Below are positions 12-25,684 of a DNA stretch of 36,856 bases, in pieces. Both the position numbers and the translations under genes were made by a program. The DNA is from Sulfurimonas sp. GTDB lineage: Bacteria > Campylobacterota > Campylobacteria > Campylobacterales > Sulfurimonadaceae. The stretch's first letter is position 1. Every line of letters starts with the position of its first letter. The notes under the pieces were generated by a model that saw only the letters and a list, made by a program, of their open reading frames with translations, did no database searches and was not told the DNA's origin. The DNA lies in NCBI GenBank assembly GCA_015487435.1, contig WFPU01000186.1:1-36856 (forward strand), in the 5' to 3' direction.

Positions 12-1253
12 ATGGAAATCCAAGAAAAAACTATAGAACTAAAAAACACTCTTCTTTATGACAGATTAACTCTTCTACCAAATAGACTTAAACTCATTGA
101 AGATTTAGCAAAAAATAATGGAACAGCTCACTTATCACTAATAAATATAGATAGATTTAAGGATATCAACGATTTATATGGGTATAAAATTGGGGATGAA
201 ATTTTAAAAAAATTAGCTCAAACGATGCAAAAACTCTCAGTAAATGAAGCTACTGTTTATAAACTTCCAACAGATGAATTTGCAATATTTATAACCAAAG
301 AGATTAGTGAAAAAGAATTTTTAAAAACTATTAAAAATTTAATAAATTTAATTCAAGAGACTCCGTTTACAATAGATAAACACTCAATTTTTATAACACT
401 AAGTTGTGGTATAGCATGTAATGATGATTCCTTAATCATTAAAGCAAACTCAGCACTTCAGCTTGCTAAGAGTAAAACTAAAAGTGTTGTGACTTATGAT
501 AAATCATTAGATACTAAAAAGCAAATACTAGAAAATAATGATGCTTTGTTAATGTTAAAAGAGGCTATAAAAAATGATACAATTACTCCATACTTTCAAC
601 CTATTTATAATACTCGTACAAAAAAAATAGAAAAATATGAAGCTTTAGCTAGAATAATATTAAACAATGGTGATGTAGTGGCACCTTTTAAATTTTTAGA
701 GATTGCAATAAAAGCTAAACTATACTCAGAAATCACTCATGCTATGATAAGAAAATCATTTGAGTACTTCAAAGATAAAGAATATGAATTTTCTTTAAAC
801 ATCTCTATATTAGATATAGAAAATAAAAAAACTGTAAACTATCTTTTAGATGCTATAAAAAAATTCCCAAATCCGAGCAGAATTGTACTTGAAATATTAG
901 AGAGCGATAAAGTTGATAACTATGAAAAACTTAAAGAGTTTATAAACAAGATCAAGCAATATGGATGTAAATTTGCTATAGATGATTTTGGTAGCGGATA
1001 TTCTAATTTTGCTCATATTTTTGAGCTAAAGGTGGATTATTTAAAAATTGACGCTTCATTAGTTAAGAATATCACTACAGATGATAACTCAAAAATTATC
1101 ACTAAAACAATTATTAATTTTGCTTCTAGTATGGGGCTGCAAACAATAGCTGAATATGTAGAAGATAAAAATTCTTTAAAAATACTTGAAAAAATGGGTG
1201 TTAACTTTGTACAAGGATATTATATTGGCAAACCTGCGAAAAATATTATATAA
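12..1253 (+). CDS. GGDEF-EAL domain protein, degenerate GGDEF and intact-looking EAL; probably 5'-truncated by the window edge
   Basis: GGDEF-fold motifs (DRLTLLPNR, NIDRFKDIND) with LPTDEF in place of GGDEF. EAL motifs YEALARI, LEILES, AIDDFGSGYSNF, LKIDASLV, AEYVED, VQGYYIGKP. The frame stays open to base 1 (codons tta, tta, aag before the ATG). Confidence 0.9.
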   Translation: MEIQEKTIELKNTLLYDRLTLLPNRLKLIEDLAKNNGTAHLSLINIDRFKDINDLYGYKIGDEILKKLAQTMQKLSVNEATVYKLPTDEFAIFITKEISEKEFLKTIKNLINLIQETPFTIDKHSIFITLSCGIACNDDSLIIKANSALQLAKSKTKSVVTYDKSLDTKKQILENNDALLMLKEAIKNDTITPYFQPIYNTRTKKIEKYEALARIILNNGDVVAPFKFLEIAIKAKLYSEITHAMIRKSFEYFKDKEYEFSLNISILDIENKKTVNYLLDAIKKFPNPSRIVLEILESDKVDNYEKLKEFINKIKQYGCKFAIDDFGSGYSNFAHIFELKVDYLKIDASLVKNITTDDNSKIITKTIINFASSMGLQTIAEYVEDKNSLKILEKMGVNFVQGYYIGKPAKNII

Positions 1254-1382
1254 TTTATTACAAGATTGCCATTTTATAGCAAATAAGTGTATACATTGAA
1301 ACCTATTTCATGAAATATTATGACTAATATTGCATCTAATAACAATATTACTAAAATATATGTTACAATCTCGCAATTATAT

Positions 1383-1502
1383 AATTAAGATTTCCGATTA
1401 TTTAGAAACTAGACCCTAAATCAAGTTTAGGGTGACGCTGTCCCCGTCATTTAGGACTTGATCCAGAATCTAATTTATAATCAATCAGAGAGTTCAATTA
1501 AT
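1383..1502. repeat. Palindromic MITE-like element, copy 1
   Basis: Terminal repeats aattaagatttccgattatttag ... ataatcaatcagagagttcaatt. Internal arms tagaccctaaatcaagtttagggtgacg and cgtcatttaggacttgatccagaatcta. Confidence 0.8.
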
Positions 1503-1536
1503 ATATATGATAACTTTACTATAACGGAAAAAGCTA

Positions 1537-2079
1537 ATGTCTTCAAAAAGTTTATCAAAACTAGATGCTCCAAAAAACATAACTGCTAATGAAAAAATAT
1601 TAAGTAATAATGATTTTATAGTTTCAAAAACGGATTTGAAAGGTAAAATCATTTATTGCAATGAAATATTTATGGAGATAGCAGGTTATTCTGCATCTGA
1701 ATTAATTGGCGCAAACCATAACATTATTCGCCACCCTGATATGCCTCGTATCGCTTTTAAAATAGCTTGGGATCTAATCCAAAACAACAAAGAATTTTTT
1801 GGTTTTGTAAAAAATCTGTGTGCTGATGGTGGATACTATTGGGTATTTACATATATCACTGCTGATTTAGATACGAATGGTAAGATCATTAGTTACACAT
1901 CTATTAGAAGAAAACCTCCCCAATCTGCAATTGATACCATAATACCTGTATATAAACTATTACAAGCTGCAGAAAAAAGTGGTGGGATGGATGCTTCAGA
2001 AAAAGTTTTAAATAATTTTCTAGAAGAAAATAAAACAACTTACGATGAACTTGTTATAAATTTACAAAATGGAGCTTAG
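1537..2079 (+). CDS. PAS-domain protein, Aer/CetB-like redox/energy-taxis sensor
   Basis: PAS core [44 protein letters not shown]...[12 protein letters not shown]. Sits directly upstream of an MCP gene. Confidence 0.85.
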
Positions 2080-2081
2080 AT

Positions 2082-3404
2082 ATGGTTTTTTTTAATAAAC
2101 AAAAAAATAATGACACTGAATTAATGCAACAGATATCTAATGTTTTAAATGATGTCAAAAACGGTAAACTTGCTTCTCGTATCATATTATCAACAAATGA
2201 AACACCCTTAGAATCTATCGCTTGGGATATAAACAATTCCCTTGATCAAATGGAGGTTATACTTAGAGAAAGTCGTAACAACATTATCGCTATTAGCAAT
2301 GGTCAAATGTATAGAACTATGTTCTCTGCAGGACTTAAAGGTGAGTTTAAAGATACTGCAAGTACAATCAGTAAAACCATGGCATCTATGAAAGCTAATG
2401 AAAAATATAAAATTATGGGACAACTATCTAGTGAATTTAGCAGTTTTAATAATGGAATGGAGGGAAATTTTGATGTTATAACATCTGGAATAAACAAAGC
2501 CGAAGTCTCCCTTCAAGAAGTTGCAACAAAAACCTCTGAGGCTGCAGAATCAGCTAAATTAACCTTTAGCTCTGTTGAAAATACAACCGTAGAAATTTCA
2601 AATTTAAATGAACTTATTGTAAATACAACTAGTTCAATTTCTGAGCTTGATGATAATGTTGGAGATATTACAAATGTTGTTAACCTAATCAAAGATATAG
2701 CTGATCAAACAAACTTACTCGCTTTAAATGCAGCAATAGAAGCAGCGCGAGCAGGTGAGCATGGTCGTGGTTTTGCCGTAGTTGCTGATGAAGTTAGAAA
2801 ATTAGCAGAACGCACTCAAAAGGCTACAGGAGAGATAAGTATAACTATCCAAAATCTTCAACAACAATCAAATACCATCTCTGAAAATGCTACCACTATG
2901 AACGAAATAGCGCAAAACACAACTGAGACTATGGATATATTTTCAAACACAATGAATAAATTTACCGATGATTTATCTAAAACATCACAAATATCAAATG
3001 AAAGTAGTTTTGCACTATTTTTATCTAATTATAAGATAGATCACATCTTATTTAAATCATCTGCTTATTCATCTGTTGTTAATGGTACGGCCTCAGATAA
3101 GCTTAAAAAAGATCATAAGCATTGTGGTTTTGGTGCTTGGTATTATGGCTCAGGGCAAAAACTATTTGCTTCTAATCAAACATTTAAAAATATGCAACAT
3201 CACCATCAAGAATTTCACAATCTCATAAATAAGAATATTGAATGTGCGTTAAGTGGTAGTTGTATGAGTGAAAGCAAAAATAGAAAAAAGATTATGCAAC
3301 AATTTCAAGATGCTGAAGAACATTCAAACAAATTATTTGTGTTGCTAGACGATTTAGCTAATGAGATTGGATCAACCATAGATATGCGCGAAGTTATTAG
3401 TTAA
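2082..3404 (+). CDS. Methyl-accepting chemotaxis protein, apparently soluble, with C-terminal CZB zinc-binding domain
   Basis: MCP signalling hairpin [37 protein letters not shown] motif [15 protein letters not shown]...HHHQEFH. No clear transmembrane segment. Confidence 0.9.
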
Positions 3405-16422: not shown

Positions 16423-17604
16423 TTGTTTCGACTATTAGTGTTATTTTTACTTTCTACTTCACTGTTTGGCTCTAAGATAGACTCCTTTCGTTGGGAAAAT
16501 GGTATATCTTATTTGATGTTTTTACAAAAGCATAACCTGCCAGCAAAAAAACTATATTATGATTTAGATAGATATGATCAAACATTAACTGAAGAGATTC
16601 GTTCTGGTACAAACTACCATGTTTTAAAGGATAATGAAAACAATATTCTACAATTGCTTATCCCTTTAAATGATGAGCTTCAAATTCATATTTACAGATA
16701 TAAAGATGAATACTATTTTGAAATAATTCCAATAATCTCTAACACAAAAAGAGAAGCCTTCGTTTTAAAAATAACACATTCTCCATATTATGACATTATA
16801 AAGAATACAGGAAGTAAAAAATTAGCCCAAATATTTGTAGCAAACTATAAGTACTCACTTAACTTTAAACGAGATTTGAGAAAAGGGGATACTTTAATCA
16901 TGATGTATGATCAAAAATATCGTCTTGGAATCCCTTTTTCTATGCCTATATTAAAAGCTGCTATGATTGAGATGAGAGGAAAAAAGCATTATATTTATCA
17001 TAATGACGATGATAGATACTATAATGAAAAAGCCCATGAAATTGAGGGGTTTTTACTAGCACGCCCTGTTAAAAATGCCAGAATCTCTTCATATTTTACA
17101 AAAAGACGATATCATCCAGTACTTAAAAGATATCGACCACATTTAGGAGTGGATTATGCAGCAAGACGAGGCACACCTATTGTTGCAGCTGGAAGTGGAC
17201 GCATAAGTTTTATAGGCCATACTCGTGGTTATGGTAACCTTATAAAAATTCGTCACTCTGATGGATATACTACACTTTATGCCCATCAAAAATCTTTTAG
17301 AAGGGGGATGAAAAAAGGAAAGTATGTTAAAAAGGGTCAAGTTATTGGTTATGTAGGCTCTACTGGGCTCTCTACTGGTCCACATCTGCATTTTGGGCTA
17401 TATAAACATGGTCGAGCTATAAATCCTCTGCGTGTTGTTCAAGTTACAACAAAAAAATTAAAAGGCAAAGCTAAAAAATCATTTCTTAGATTAAAAGAAA
17501 ACTATGATCAAAGTCTTAATATCCATTTAGCAAATAATACACCTTACATTAAAAAACCAAAACCAAGTAATGTATGTTATTTTCAATGTGAGGAGCATCT
17601 ATGA
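16423..17604 (+). CDS. M23 family metallopeptidase, Csd3/HdpA-like; TTG start
   Basis: HLGVDYAARRGTPIVAAGSGRISFIGHTRGYGNLIKIRHSDGYTTLYAHQ...GSTGLSTGPHLHFGLYKHGRAINP. Start codon at 16423 is TTG. Confidence 0.92.
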   Translation: MFRLLVLFLLSTSLFGSKIDSFRWENGISYLMFLQKHNLPAKKLYYDLDRYDQTLTEEIRSGTNYHVLKDNENNILQLLIPLNDELQIHIYRYKDEYYFEIIPIISNTKREAFVLKITHSPYYDIIKNTGSKKLAQIFVANYKYSLNFKRDLRKGDTLIMMYDQKYRLGIPFSMPILKAAMIEMRGKKHYIYHNDDDRYYNEKAHEIEGFLLARPVKNARISSYFTKRRYHPVLKRYRPHLGVDYAARRGTPIVAAGSGRISFIGHTRGYGNLIKIRHSDGYTTLYAHQKSFRRGMKKGKYVKKGQVIGYVGSTGLSTGPHLHFGLYKHGRAINPLRVVQVTTKKLKGKAKKSFLRLKENYDQSLNIHLANNTPYIKKPKPSNVCYFQCEEHL

Positions 17605-18188
17605 GTAGTATTGATAATATAGACCAACTAACAAATCCAAAATTTATAAAACCCATTAAAATAAACTACACCTACAATGGTAAAAAAAAGGTTTGGGAAG
17701 CAGTTGTAAACAACGACAGCGTCTCAGTTTTACTTTACCACAAAGATAAAGATGCTTTGGTTATAGTAAAACAACTTCGGGTTCCTGTTTTATATATGAA
17801 TAAAACTAATGGTATGATGCACGAACTTTGTGCCGGGTTAGTAGATAAAGACAAATCAATAAAACAAATTGCAAAAGAGGAAGTTTTTGAAGAGTGTGGC
17901 TACGATGTGCCACTAGAAAATATTCAAAAAATTAGTTCATTTTATACAAGTGTAGGTATGAGTGGAGCTTTACAGACTCTTTATTATGCTCAAATTGATT
18001 CTAGTATGAAAGTTAATGATGGTGGTGGATTAGATGAAGAGGATATAGAAGTTATCTATATCCCACTTAAAGAAGCTAAAAAATTTATGTTTGATGAGTC
18101 TTATCAAAAAACGCCTGGATTGATGTTAGGGTTTTATTGGTTTTTTGACAATCAATGTGAGGTAGATTCTGAATCAAGTTCAGAATGA
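17601..18188 (+). CDS. NUDIX hydrolase (ADP-ribose/UDP-sugar pyrophosphatase-like)
   Basis: Nudix box AGLVDKDKSIKQIAKEEVFEECGY. ATGA overlap with upstream M23 gene. C-terminus VDSESSSE* is encoded by a repeat arm. Confidence 0.9.
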   Translation: MSSIDNIDQLTNPKFIKPIKINYTYNGKKKVWEAVVNNDSVSVLLYHKDKDALVIVKQLRVPVLYMNKTNGMMHELCAGLVDKDKSIKQIAKEEVFEECGYDVPLENIQKISSFYTSVGMSGALQTLYYAQIDSSMKVNDGGGLDEEDIEVIYIPLKEAKKFMFDESYQKTPGLMLGFYWFFDNQCEVDSESSSE

Positions 18189-18332
18189 CAAAAAACTCAT
18201 CATCCTGAACAAAACTCGTCATCCTGAACAAACTCGTCACCTGAACAAACTCGTCACCTGAACAAACTCGTCATCCTGAACAAACTCGTCATCCTGAACA
18301 AACTCGTCATCCTGAACTTGATTCAGGATCTA
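18162..18332. repeat. Palindromic element, copy 5, with ~18-bp tandem array (unit tcgtcatcctgaacaaac)
   Basis: gtagattctgaatcaagttcagaatgac, then about seven units of tcrtcatcctgaacaaac (two units 17 nt, tcgtcacctgaacaaac), ending tcgtcatcctgaacttgattcaggatcta. Confidence 0.92.
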
Positions 18333-18339
18333 AATTTTT

Positions 18340-20304
18340 CTAACCAAACTCAATAGGATCCATATCTACCTCTGCTAAATCTACCTTTGATATTTTAATA
18401 GCCTTTATCAACTCAGTAGACTTATCAGCTCGAAGTAAGATCTCAAATCTGTATTTATTAGATATCCTCTCAATTGCACACTTCCCATATCCAACTATCT
18501 CTATCTCATTAAAAGATAAAAGTTTATTTTGCATTATCTCCATAGCCTCTCTAGCTTTTGCCCCATTTTTATGTGAAAATAAAACTCGACATAGTTTTTT
18601 ATATGGTGGGTATAATTTTTTTCTGTACTCTTTTTCTTCTTCTAAAAACTCTTCATAATTATCTATATAGGTATTAAAAAAATCTTCATTAAAACTTTGA
18701 ACTAATACTTTTGCACTCTTTTTTCGTCCACTTCGTCCCGCTATTTGTAAAAGTGAAGATAAAGCCTTCTCACGAGAGTTATAATGAGACATATATAACA
18801 TATTGTCCATGCCTAAAACTACAGCTAAAGTTACACCATGATAATCATGCCCTTTTGAAAGCATTTGAGTCCCTATAAGTATATCTGTTTCTTTATCGTT
18901 AAATCTTTTTAATGCTTTTTTTAATTTTGTAGAGGTTGTTATTATATCTCTATCAAATTGCTCTACTTGTGCATCCACAAACTCTTCTTTTATGTTTTTT
19001 ACAGCTTCTGCTGTACCTAGTCTAGAACTTACTAATGAATTGCCAGCACACTTTAAGCATACTTGTGGTATCGCTTGAGTATAGTTACAGTAGTGACATT
19101 TTAAAGCATTTGATTTGTTATGAATACTCATCCCGATGCTACAAAACACACACTCATAATGGTGACCACAATTTTGACAAATCAGATGTTTAAAGTTCGC
19201 ACGAGTTGGGATAAAAACAATTGATTGCTCTTTTTTATCTAAAGTTGTTTTTAAAGAGTTTAAAACGAGCGGGCTTAATCGTTCTGCACTTTTTTCATAT
19301 ATGAACTCCCTATGAGAATTAAAAAAACCACCTTTAAGTCTTACATATGGAAACTTTACAAACGAGCCTAAAGATGGGGTCGCACTACCTAGTACCACAG
19401 CAATATTATGAATTTTACCCATATAAATTGCTAAATCTCGTGCATTGTATCTTGGACGAGATGATGATTTATAGCTATCATCATGCTCTTCATCTACAAC
19501 TATTAAACCTAAATCTTTTATTGGTAAAAACAGAGTTGAACGAGGTCCTGCTACTATTTTTGCCTCTGCACTTCTTATTTTTACTAAAGCCTCTCTTTTT
19601 TGTTTTGGAGTTAGTTTTGAATGGTACATTACCACCTTATCTCCAAAGTGTTTTTGAAGTCTTATTCCCATTTGAGGAGTAAGAGAGATTTCTGGCATTA
19701 AGAGGATACCTCTCTTATTTAAAGCTAAAATATCTTCAAAGTATTTCATATATATCTCTGTTTTACCACTACCTGTATCGCCAAAAAGAAGAGATACTTT
19801 ATGTTGTTTTAAAAATGCAAGGGCATTTTCTTGTTTTTGTGAGAGTTTTAGGCTAGATTCTGAATCAAGTTCAGAATGACGAAGTTGTTCAGAATGACGA
19901 AGTTGTTCAGAGTGACGAAGTTGTTCAGAGTGACGAAGTTGTTCAGAATGACTACCCTCCGTCATTCCTTGCTTGACAAGGAATCTAGTTTCTGAATCAA
20001 GTTCGTTTTGAGAAGAAGATTCATAGGGAGTCATAATCCCAAAAGCATCACCTAGAGAACAGATATAATAAGCAGAGATAAATTTAGCTAATTTTATCTG
20101 TTTAGATGAAAAATAAAATCCACTAATATTTAAAATTTCATTTGTGTCAAATTCTGGCTCTTGGCATGTGCTAATTATAACACCCTTAACCTCTCTGTTT
20201 TTAACTTTTATATCAACTATTGTGCCAGATTTTATTGTGTTTGTAGATTTGTAGGTATACTCATACAAAGGTGAGCTAATAAGAGATATTTTGTAGTAAT
20301 TCAA
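18340..20304 (-). CDS. priA: Primosomal protein N' (PriA helicase) with in-frame repeat insertion
   Basis: Walker A LLFGDTGSGKTEIYM, DEEHDDSYK, zinc cysteines CQNCGHHYECVFCSIGM...CHYCNY...CLKCAG, GTQMLSKGHDY, QIAGRSGR. Confidence 0.96.
   Translation of the reverse strand: MNYYKISLISSPLYEYTYKSTNTIKSGTIVDIKVKNREVKGVIISTCQEPEFDTNEILNISGFYFSSKQIKLAKFISAYYICSLGDAFGIMTPYESSSQNELDSETRFLVKQGMTEGSHSEQLRHSEQLRHSEQLRHSEQLRHSELDSESSLKLSQKQENALAFLKQHKVSLLFGDTGSGKTEIYMKYFEDILALNKRGILLMPEISLTPQMGIRLQKHFGDKVVMYHSKLTPKQKREALVKIRSAEAKIVAGPRSTLFLPIKDLGLIVVDEEHDDSYKSSSRPRYNARDLAIYMGKIHNIAVVLGSATPSLGSFVKFPYVRLKGGFFNSHREFIYEKSAERLSPLVLNSLKTTLDKKEQSIVFIPTRANFKHLICQNCGHHYECVFCSIGMSIHNKSNALKCHYCNYTQAIPQVCLKCAGNSLVSSRLGTAEAVKNIKEEFVDAQVEQFDRDIITTSTKLKKALKRFNDKETDILIGTQMLSKGHDYHGVTLAVVLGMDNMLYMSHYNSREKALSSLLQIAGRSGRKKSAKVLVQSFNEDFFNTYIDNYEEFLEEEKEYRKKLYPPYKKLCRVLFSHKNGAKAREAMEIMQNKLLSFNEIEIVGYGKCAIERISNKYRFEILLRADKSTELIKAIKISKVDLAEVDMDPIEFG
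19853..20005. repeat. Palindromic element plus exact 18-bp tandem array within priA coding sequence
   Basis: ctagattctgaatcaagttcagaatgac; ttcagaRtgac recurs at 19870, 19888, 19906, 19924 and 19942 (18-nt period); then cgtcattccttgcttgacaaggaatctagtttctgaatcaagttc. Confidence 0.93.
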
Positions 20305-23047: not shown

Positions 23048-24808
23048 ATGATAAACCCTAACAAAAGCAAAAAAATATTTTTACTTTACACTATTATATC
23101 TATAGGGTTTATAATATTTTTGGGAGTTATGCTCCTTCTTGTTGTTAAGCCACGTAATCTCCCCTCTCTATATTCAAAAGATAGCTCTAAAGCTATGAGG
23201 GGTAACATAATTAGTGCTGATGGTTTTACAATAGCCTCAACTACAAAACTTTATAAAGCGGTTGTAAATACAAAATATATAGACCCATTAAAAAAAGAGT
23301 TATTTATTGAACTTTTTAGCATTTACTCTGGTATGAAATCTAGTGATGTGAAAAAAAAATTATCTAAACGAAATGGGATTGTAGTTTTAAGTTATAACAT
23401 TGATGAAAAACATGCACAATATCTTAAAAAACTATCATATGAGCTTCGTCGTTATAAAGTTTTTCTTTCACTCACTAATCCAATTTCGAAAATAAAATCT
23501 ATCCATGGATTAAGTATACTTGAAAGTGGAGAAAGCAGAGAATACCCTTATGAAAAACTACTAACTCCAATTATAGGTTATACCCACAAAATTGAAGAGG
23601 ATGGCTATACTAAGATTCGTGGGGTAAAAGGTTTAGAGAGACGATTTGAAGATGAATTAAGTTCAAGAGTAGATGCACTAAGTCAGGGCAAAAGAGATGT
23701 AAACGGGTATATCATTTTAAATAAACAAAGTTTTACTAAACAGCAAATAGATGGTTTAGATATAAAACTAAATATACCAGCCGCCCTTCAAGTAAAAGTG
23801 GAACAGATGTTGGACACAATGAAAATAGAGCTAAAAGCTAAAGAGATAATAATAGTTATTATGGATTCTAAAAATGGGAAAGTTTTATCTGCTGCTAGTT
23901 CAAATAGATATCTTCCAAAAAAGATTAGAAAAAAAGATTATCCATCTTTGAACTCTTCAATCATTGAGTATAGTTTTGAACCAGGTAGTGTTATTAAAAC
24001 TATAACTTTTGCATTACTTTTAGATAAAAAACTCATTAACCCTTATGATTTGGTAAATGGGCATAATGGTCGATTTAAAATTGGTCGTAAAGTGATTACT
24101 GATGAGCATGAATTTGACTGGATCTCTGCTGAAAATGTTATAGTACACTCTTCAAATATAGGGATAGCCCAACTTGCACAAAAATTAAATGGGAGTGAGT
24201 TTAATGAAGGTTTAAAAAGTTTCGGTTTGTCTTCTAAATCTACACCAGACCTAATATATGAAAAAAAAGGATCTATCCCTAATTCTACAAAATTAAATAA
24301 TGAAATTTATAAAGCAACAAGCTCCTACGGTTATGGGATGCACTCTAATCTTATGCAACTAATACGTGCATATTCAGTTTTTAACAACCATGGAAAGATG
24401 ACAACTCCACAAATAGTAGATTCATTTATAGATGAGAATAAAAATGAAATAAAAATTAAAAATGATGAGCCAATACAAGTAATAAGCCCAACAACAGCTC
24501 AAAGAGTAAAAAAAATACTTATAAAAACAGTAAATAAGGGGACTGGCGTTAAAGCGATAAGTGAGGGCTTAATAGTTGGTGGAAAAACTGGAACTGCACA
24601 TAAAGTTAAAAAGGGTCGTTATATAAACAAATATAACACTGTTTTTTTAGGTTTTGTAAATGATGCAACTCATAATTACACAATGGGAGTAGTCGTAAAT
24701 GAGCCTAAAAAAAGTCAATTTGCTGCTCAAACAGCTGTCCCCGTTTTTAAAAAAGCTATTGATATTTTAGTAGATAATGGCTATTTAGAGCCAAAGATTA
24801 TCAAGTAG
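23048..24808 (+). CDS. ftsI: Peptidoglycan transpeptidase, FtsI/PBP2-type
   Basis: SxxK motif PGSVIKTITF, SSN motif, KTGT motif (GGKTGTAHKV); N-terminal TM. Confidence 0.93.
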   Translation: MINPNKSKKIFLLYTIISIGFIIFLGVMLLLVVKPRNLPSLYSKDSSKAMRGNIISADGFTIASTTKLYKAVVNTKYIDPLKKELFIELFSIYSGMKSSDVKKKLSKRNGIVVLSYNIDEKHAQYLKKLSYELRRYKVFLSLTNPISKIKSIHGLSILESGESREYPYEKLLTPIIGYTHKIEEDGYTKIRGVKGLERRFEDELSSRVDALSQGKRDVNGYIILNKQSFTKQQIDGLDIKLNIPAALQVKVEQMLDTMKIELKAKEIIIVIMDSKNGKVLSAASSNRYLPKKIRKKDYPSLNSSIIEYSFEPGSVIKTITFALLLDKKLINPYDLVNGHNGRFKIGRKVITDEHEFDWISAENVIVHSSNIGIAQLAQKLNGSEFNEGLKSFGLSSKSTPDLIYEKKGSIPNSTKLNNEIYKATSSYGYGMHSNLMQLIRAYSVFNNHGKMTTPQIVDSFIDENKNEIKIKNDEPIQVISPTTAQRVKKILIKTVNKGTGVKAISEGLIVGGKTGTAHKVKKGRYINKYNTVFLGFVNDATHNYTMGVVVNEPKKSQFAAQTAVPVFKKAIDILVDNGYLEPKIIK

Positions 24809-25606
24809 TCTGGTGTTAGCAACTTTTACTTCGACTAAAATAATTGTATCTTTTAATTTTACATTTTTTATCTGATTGAACTCTCTATCTAAAATCTCAA
24901 TATATAATATCTCTAAATCATCTAAAAAATCTCTCATCTTTTGTATTATATTTTTTGAATTTAACTCACCATTTTTTATCAAGTTTGAAGCAAGATTTAA
25001 GGAGTTTGGAATTAAAAGAGCTTTATTTCTCTGCTCCTTACTAAGATATATATTTCTACTGCTTAGGGCTAATCCATCTACATCACGAACTGTGTTTACA
25101 GCTACAATCTCTACATTCATAAACAATTGTTTTACCATCAACTCTATAAGGTTTAATTGTTGTGCATCTTTTTTTCCAAAATAAGCACGCGAGGGGTTTA
25201 CTATATTTAAAAGTTTATTTACAACTGTTAAAACGCCATTAAAGTGAGATGGTCTAGTAAAGCCCTCTAAAACATAACCTCGAATATTTGGAGATGATAT
25301 ACTAACTTCATCTTCAGAATAAATATCATCAACATGTGGAAAAAATAAAATATCCACACCAGCGAGTTCACAAATCTTTTTATCAGCATCATCTCGTCTA
25401 GGATATTTGTCTAAATCCTCATCTGCACTAAATTGTGTAGGGTTTACAAATATACTTACTACTATAAAGTCATTCTCTTTTTTAGCTTCTCTAATTAGTG
25501 TTAAATGACCCTCATGCAAAGCTCCCATTGTTGGAATAAAACCTATTGTTTTATCTATAGTTTTTAAATAATTTTTTAATTTTATTGGATTTGATATAAT
25601 CTTCAT
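24785..25606 (-). CDS. panC: Pantothenate synthetase
   Basis: TIGFIPTMGALHEGHLTLIREAK, VSIFVNPTQF, YFGKKDAQQL, SSRNIYLS. Start set at MKIISNPIKL (25606), not the track's 25675. Confidence 0.95.
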   Translation of the reverse strand: MKIISNPIKLKNYLKTIDKTIGFIPTMGALHEGHLTLIREAKKENDFIVVSIFVNPTQFSADEDLDKYPRRDDADKKICELAGVDILFFPHVDDIYSEDEVSISSPNIRGYVLEGFTRPSHFNGVLTVVNKLLNIVNPSRAYFGKKDAQQLNLIELMVKQLFMNVEIVAVNTVRDVDGLALSSRNIYLSKEQRNKALLIPNSLNLASNLIKNGELNSKNIIQKMRDFLDDLEILYIEILDREFNQIKNVKLKDTIILVEVKVANTRLLDNLWL

Positions 25607-25650
25607 TTTAAGCCTAAATTTTATATAATCGCAATTATACAATATACTTA

Positions 25651-25684
25651 CTTCGTCATTCTGAACTTGATTCAAAATGGTGAT
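25651..25684. repeat. Partial/decayed palindromic element arm between panC and prfB
   Basis: cttcgtcattctgaacttgattcaaaatggtgat. Confidence 0.65.

Follow-up and report, generated by a model that had tools for sequence, protein, structure and literature searches.

Comparison of PriA proteins in Sulfurimonas supports independent and repeated invasion of one linker, between the 3′DNA-binding domain and the helicase core, by different palindrome families. One such case lies in the window, the whole 36,856-nt stretch of DNA analysed here, which is a single contig (G000:C186) from a genome (G000) of 2.4 Mb in 323 contigs; the closest relatives of this genome by PriA are Sulfurimonas. The first-pass annotation was right about the position and the reading frame of the repeat block inside priA, which adds 153 nt within an intact 654-aa open reading frame (Table 1).

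Table 1 Positions of the features described. Nucleotide positions refer to the window unless a locus (L) is named.
Feature	Source	Position	Strand	Details
priA ORF	Window	18340–20304	−	654 aa, complete; PriA-specific models above cut-off
PriA 3′DNA-binding domain	Window PriA	aa 13–93		
PriA repeat-encoded linker	Window PriA	aa 100–151		
PriA helicase core	Window PriA	from about aa 152		
PriA Walker A	Window PriA	aa 175–182		GDTGSGKT
Repeat-derived in-frame insert	Window	19853–20005	−	153 nt, 51 codons, multiple of 3
Truncated third REP	Window	19985–20005	−	AACTTGATTCAGAAACTAG; encodes NELDSET; at insert edge
Inverted partner REP	Window	19960–19988	+	Different stem; CGTCATTCCTTGCTTGACAAGGAATCTAG on + strand
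Tandem array	Window	19869–19952	−	18-nt unit CGTCATTCTGAACAACTT, 4.7 copies; encodes (HSEQLR)n
Full CGTC-tagged REP	Window	19853–19881	−	CGTC + ATTCTGAA / CTTGA / TTCAGAAT + CTAG
nudix/priA intergenic element	Window	18163–18332	.	Inverted REP pair (27-nt arms, 93% complementary) flanking a noncoding array
Bifunctional aldolase/short-chain dehydrogenase (SDR)	G000			In-frame REP insert
Glycosyltransferase	L011	998–2026		Several REP-encoded stretches; 24-nt in-frame array, about seven SQAENDNV units
UDP-glucose 6-dehydrogenase	G000			In-frame REP insert
Mannose-1-phosphate guanylyltransferase (ManC)	G000			In-frame REP insert
SdhA/FrdA-like flavoprotein	G000			In-frame REP insert, QVQDDGH x4
dTDP-glucose 4,6-dehydratase	L154	1096–2220		Two separate REP-encoded inserts
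CGTC REPs	Window, G016, G024, G062, G065, G077, L072, L076	PriA linker		
GTCATTGCGAGC repeats	G004, G062, L076, L086	PriA linker		
CATTCCCAAGCGGAGCATGGGAACGA-type repeats	G005, G012, L068, L073, L088, L100	PriA linker		
GGATGTGAGGCTTTAGCCTCACC-type repeats	G019, G026, G072, L083	PriA linker		
ACCCAGACTTCAGTCTGGG-type repeats	G011, G034, L087	PriA linker		
GAGGTTAAAACCTC-type repeats	G033, G034, G060, L064, L069	PriA linker		
RAYT-type Y1 genes	Six Sulfurimonas genomes	L243 1258–1788; L242 1453–1959; L202 123–614; L201 1501–2016; L203 1283–1822; L204 1492–2007		
Y1/HUH gene of G000	L032	ORF 1276–1803		Motif NHVHLLL

On the coding strand, the insert consists of the truncated REP, the inverted REP CTAGATTCCTTGTCAAGCAAGGAATGACG, the 18-nt units CGTCATTCTGAACAACTT (four of them full) and the full REP CGTCATTCTGAACTTGATTCAGAATCTAG, and encodes NELDSETRFLVKQGMTEGS-(HSEQLR)x4-HSELDSESS. 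Its earlier description as a palindrome plus array holds for the palindromic repeat and the array, but the palindrome is not a single one: two different REPs stand in inverted orientation on either side of the array, and a third, truncated REP lies at the edge of the block. The full REP has an 8-bp stem (ATTCTGAA/TTCAGAAT) and a 5-nt loop, CTTGA, and the stem forms in the computed fold. The CGTC tag of the inverted partner faces that of the other REP across the array, each unit of which is made up of 13 nt of REP head and a 5-nt spacer. The array period is exactly 18, as first reported, with 96% match and no indels.

The element between the nudix-family gene and priA is built alike, with two inverted REPs enclosing an array. 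This noncoding array (18193–18317) contains units of 17, 18 and 19 nt; the 17-nt units had been noticed in the first pass, and none occurs in the priA array. That the priA block is a repeat found elsewhere in the window was also borne out, a 25-nt REP core giving 8 matches against 0 in 100 shuffles. In the nudix-family ORF (17601–18188, + strand), the C-terminal residues EVDSESSSE and the stop codon are supplied by a REP (18160–18189). Another CGTC REP, at 25655–25679, overlaps the listed start of a panC-like ORF (24785–25675, − strand). Translation of this ORF probably begins some 24 codons further downstream, and the REP peptide at its N terminus may then result from the choice of start.

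Judged by its sequence, the window repeat bears published hallmarks of CGTC-tagged REPs, namely the CGTC tag, an 8-bp stem starting from AT, a 5-nt loop and a 3-nt unpaired tail. Members of this superfamily carry at one of their ends an unpaired CGTC (or TGTC/CCTC), an 8–9 bp stem starting with AT, a 4–5 nt loop and a 3-nt unpaired tail, mostly CCA, and are scattered mainly through intergenic DNA, predominantly as HH dimers (PMC3733652). The same survey lists Sulfurovum, another member of the Campylobacterota, as a carrier. The window repeat shares the arrangement in inverted pairs, mostly intergenic, but differs from the published elements in its tail, which is CTA, and in the tandem amplification of head and spacer. 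Its tags point inwards; the HH/TT definition is spelled out for GTAG elements, where tags inside correspond to TT. G000 contains 115 matches to a 16-mer of the repeat at ≤1 mismatch (0 in the reversed control) and 177 matches to a 17-mer at ≤2 mismatches (1 in the reversed control). Near-copies number 177 in G000, 141 in G062, 131 in G060, 77 in G077 and 49 in G016, with 0–2 in most other congeners. The repeat is mostly intergenic, 12 of 148 sampled instances in G000 lying in gene interiors, in 7 genes.

The distance from the YY..C motif to Walker A is 96 residues in the window PriA versus 53–60 in most relatives, and alignment with the relatives, which the first-pass annotation had proposed for defining the insert boundaries, showed insert-free linkers to be about 40 aa shorter. 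Disorder of the insert, also raised there, is predicted by AlphaFold2, with pLDDT <50 over residues 96–145 in an otherwise well-ordered model (pTM 0.73). The top fold matches of the window protein are PriA structures, including 6dcr, E. coli PriA with the winged-helix domain deleted. E. coli PriA has about 217 residues before the point that aligns with residue 169 of the window protein, and insert-free relatives are shorter still; from this alignment and these short relatives, a winged helix appears not to fit at the junction, which would therefore need only to join two domains. The best explanation places the insert in a disordered linker, at the position of the winged-helix domain in E. coli PriA.

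The extra DNA of the long Sulfurimonas PriA linkers consists of unrelated palindromes. One of six palindrome families (Table 1) was found in 30 of 86 distinct linkers; the count includes L191, a borderline pattern match that was scored as ‘none’ in the tree analysis, and L066 is likewise borderline. The six families were found in 0 of 705 200-nt chunks of the PriA helicase part and in 0 of 389 neighbouring ORFs (259 kb), with 46 matches in 55.6 kb of intergenic DNA; the enrichment of the linker over neighbouring ORFs has a Fisher p of ~4e-25. A strict inverted-repeat scan requiring 11-nt arms detected only 7 linkers, because REP stems are 8 bp, yet at a density of 0.54/kb versus 0.044/kb in other coding DNA. 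Several families are private. In a set of 37 genomes, GTCATTGCGAGCGAAGCG was found 37 times in G004, with two of these copies in priA, and otherwise twice in G009 and once in G049. GGAACCCAGACTTCAGTCTGGGCTG is confined to G011, where one of its 18 copies lies in priA, and two of the 6 copies of GAGGCTAAAGCCACACATCC in G019 are in priA.

At least 18 changes of presence and at least 24 changes of family state are required on a quick tree of the PriA helicase part, in which several forks are open; most of the genomes compared are MAGs. The window’s clade of four (98% SH-aLRT) comprises one CGTC linker, one KATHP-type linker and two with none, and G077, with an insert, and G032, without one, are close sisters. 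Further families (VRPEPVEG-type, RHSRVGGNPA-type and others) occupy 8 of 15 linkers in Sulfuricurvum. Among individual genes, G060 priA (L085/L194) has a linker region of 119 residues with several different repeats, among the longest seen, and priA of G021 (L054) has an interruption at a homopolymer immediately downstream of its linker repeat, caused by a natural change or an assembly error.

A search of G000 for other reading frames with REP-encoded peptides, a further suggestion of the first pass, yielded six more genes with in-frame inserts, four of them with arrays (Table 1), a lower bound as the genome was read in stretches around REP matches. The aldolase/SDR junction, occupied by a CGTC insert in G000, has repeat-like insertions in G026 and G060, and permissive linkers may generally behave like that of PriA. 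Array periods inside genes are 18, 21, 21, 21 and 24 nt, all multiples of 3, whereas 8 of 16 noncoding arrays are not; this frame bias is only suggestive (p ~0.06). In the sisters G016 and L072 the outer REP pair is common to both and a 21-nt array is present in G016 only, which fits in-frame turnover of arrays after insertion.

Six Sulfurimonas genomes (G005, G007, G009, G011, G063 and G064) carry RAYT-type Y1 genes with palindromes on both sides, of different families, as in published REP/RAYT systems (PMC2817692, PMC3116915). Around the Y1 gene there are repeats of family C in G005, of family E in G011 and of family D in G064; family C stands on both sides in G005, family D likewise in G064, and in G011 both sides hold the palindromes of the PriA insert. 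The flanking family is that of the genome’s own PriA in two genomes, G005 and G011. A Y1_Tnp frame of about 464 aa with one internal stop (L254, G004 C10, locus 777–3022) has GTCATTGCGAGCGAAGCG repeats, a family also found in G004 priA, on both sides. The window’s CGTC family differs from these systems in that a REP pair lies within ~350 nt upstream of a Y1 gene in G000 and G060, on one side only. The other Y1 gene of G000 (L031) has no REP nearby and, from its neighbourhood, looks like an IS200/IS605-type element. A rule that a REP-rich genome has a RAYT fails on the closed genome G077, which has 77 REPs and no Y1_Tnp match. Mobilisation of the CGTC family by a RAYT is likely but unproven, the evidence for this route being weaker for this family given the one-sided pairs, the result in G077 and the lack of CGTC–transposase association in the published survey (PMC3733652).

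The explanation that we favour, and hold to be very probable, is RAYT-type mobilisation of REPs that are tolerated at a disordered PriA linker, with arrays growing in frame-preserving steps. The CGTC-tagged pair would represent non-autonomous repeats, which RAYT-type single-strand HUH transposases probably mobilise and which multiplied in G000 and landed between the 3′DNA-binding domain and the helicase core. Their stop-free hydrophilic frames (RHSELDSES, LNQVQDD) would add a floppy loop and leave the enzyme undisturbed. Insertions elsewhere in genes would mostly be purged and those in the PriA linker tolerated, so that the palindrome family active in a given lineage, whatever it is, would tend to reach it. 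After insertion, slippage or template switching would copy the REP head together with the spacer into a tandem array, in which only changes in multiples of 3 would survive. We infer that a RAYT moved the window’s copy, that the insert is neutral and that slippage built the array; the selfish nature of the repeat and a frame held by selection, both proposed in the first-pass annotation, would likewise fit.

Benefit to the host is the strongest alternative, though in either form an improbable one. The first form, with a small chance of being correct, holds that at this hotspot of Sulfurimonas and Sulfuricurvum the repeat sequence is retained for linker length or partner binding, selfish palindromes having become working protein many times over, each time independently. 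In the second, which we consider slightly less probable again, a longer hydrophilic linker, or a DNA or RNA hairpin in priA, was selected, and recurrent capture is adaptation instead of tolerance. Such a benefit would produce the high frequency at one site (30 of 86 relatives and, in Sulfuricurvum, 8 of 15), which greatly exceeds that in the other sampled genes, but 56 of the 86 linkers lack all of the families, sisters as close as G077 and G032 differ, the peptides of different families share no common sequence, and the second linker, of the aldolase/SDR, is also occupied. The few detected family copies in G005, G019 and G021 include at least one in priA; this was not relied on, since the search patterns were built from priA copies and are biased towards them.

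A mobilising enzyme with a preference for priA DNA, acting beyond what the protein tolerates, is very unlikely. It would account for the extreme enrichment at one linker, but matches within priA are confined to that linker, intergenic sites are freely occupied and the palindrome families involved are unrelated, so that a permissive linker suffices without targeting. More doubtful still is an error of assembly or binning: the source is a fragmented MAG and repeats are where assemblies err, but the insert is short, in frame and bordered by conserved PriA sequence on both sides, and equivalent inserts occur in the single-contig genomes G077 and G011, on which ground the artefact envisaged by the first-pass annotation was rejected. 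Least probable of all is an ancient, fast-evolving linker that merely looks repetitive, its array a product of local slippage, a reading that the diverged sequence at the same position in all relatives only appears to favour, since the insert DNA belongs to a repeat with >100 copies in G000, the occupants elsewhere are unrelated palindromes, several abundant only in their own genome and absent from closely related species, and repeat-free linkers are stable at their shorter length; copy number, private families, census and tree all contradict it and point to recurrent invasion of a permissive site.

Recurrent invasion of a tolerant PriA linker has partial precedents. Rickettsia and other species with REPs are known to carry palindromes in frame within proteins, RPE-4 and RPE-6 have been equated with CGTC-4 and CGTC-1, respectively, and REPs within genes, often DNA repair genes, are already published (PMC3733652). 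As with RPE-4 and RPE-6, palindromes lie in frame in unrelated proteins and are tolerated, here in seven genes of G000; the host phylum is different, and an 18-nt array lies between the two palindromes. The likeness to these protein-invading elements, first drawn from the window alone, is supported by high-copy repeat DNA, shorter linkers in relatives, predicted disorder and arrays in multiples of 3, and by this analogy of behaviour, as opposed to RPE consensus sequence, the insert would work like an RPE. The main text of the CGTC survey does not mention priA or describe one protein site taken by many families across two genera, its nearest case being recB, where two Xanthomonas species have insertions at roughly the same position (PMC3733652). 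No open-access paper was found that reports REPs in PriA or the repeated invasion of a single protein site by different families; the novelty lies in a PriA landing site that is used recurrently and in its combination with in-frame arrays.

One site in a conserved replication-restart protein has thus received many independent arrivals from at least six unrelated families, with more in a second genus and with occupied and unoccupied close relatives. This amounts to a natural experiment, run in replicate, on the way in which mobile non-coding DNA turns into protein, on how arrays grow without loss of frame and on whether inserts that are tolerated are also neutral. The mobilising enzyme is testable too, through the RAYT genes that these repeats flank. 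The PriA linker would be a natural landing pad at which mobile non-coding DNA, in the form of a probably selfish repeat, becomes protein.
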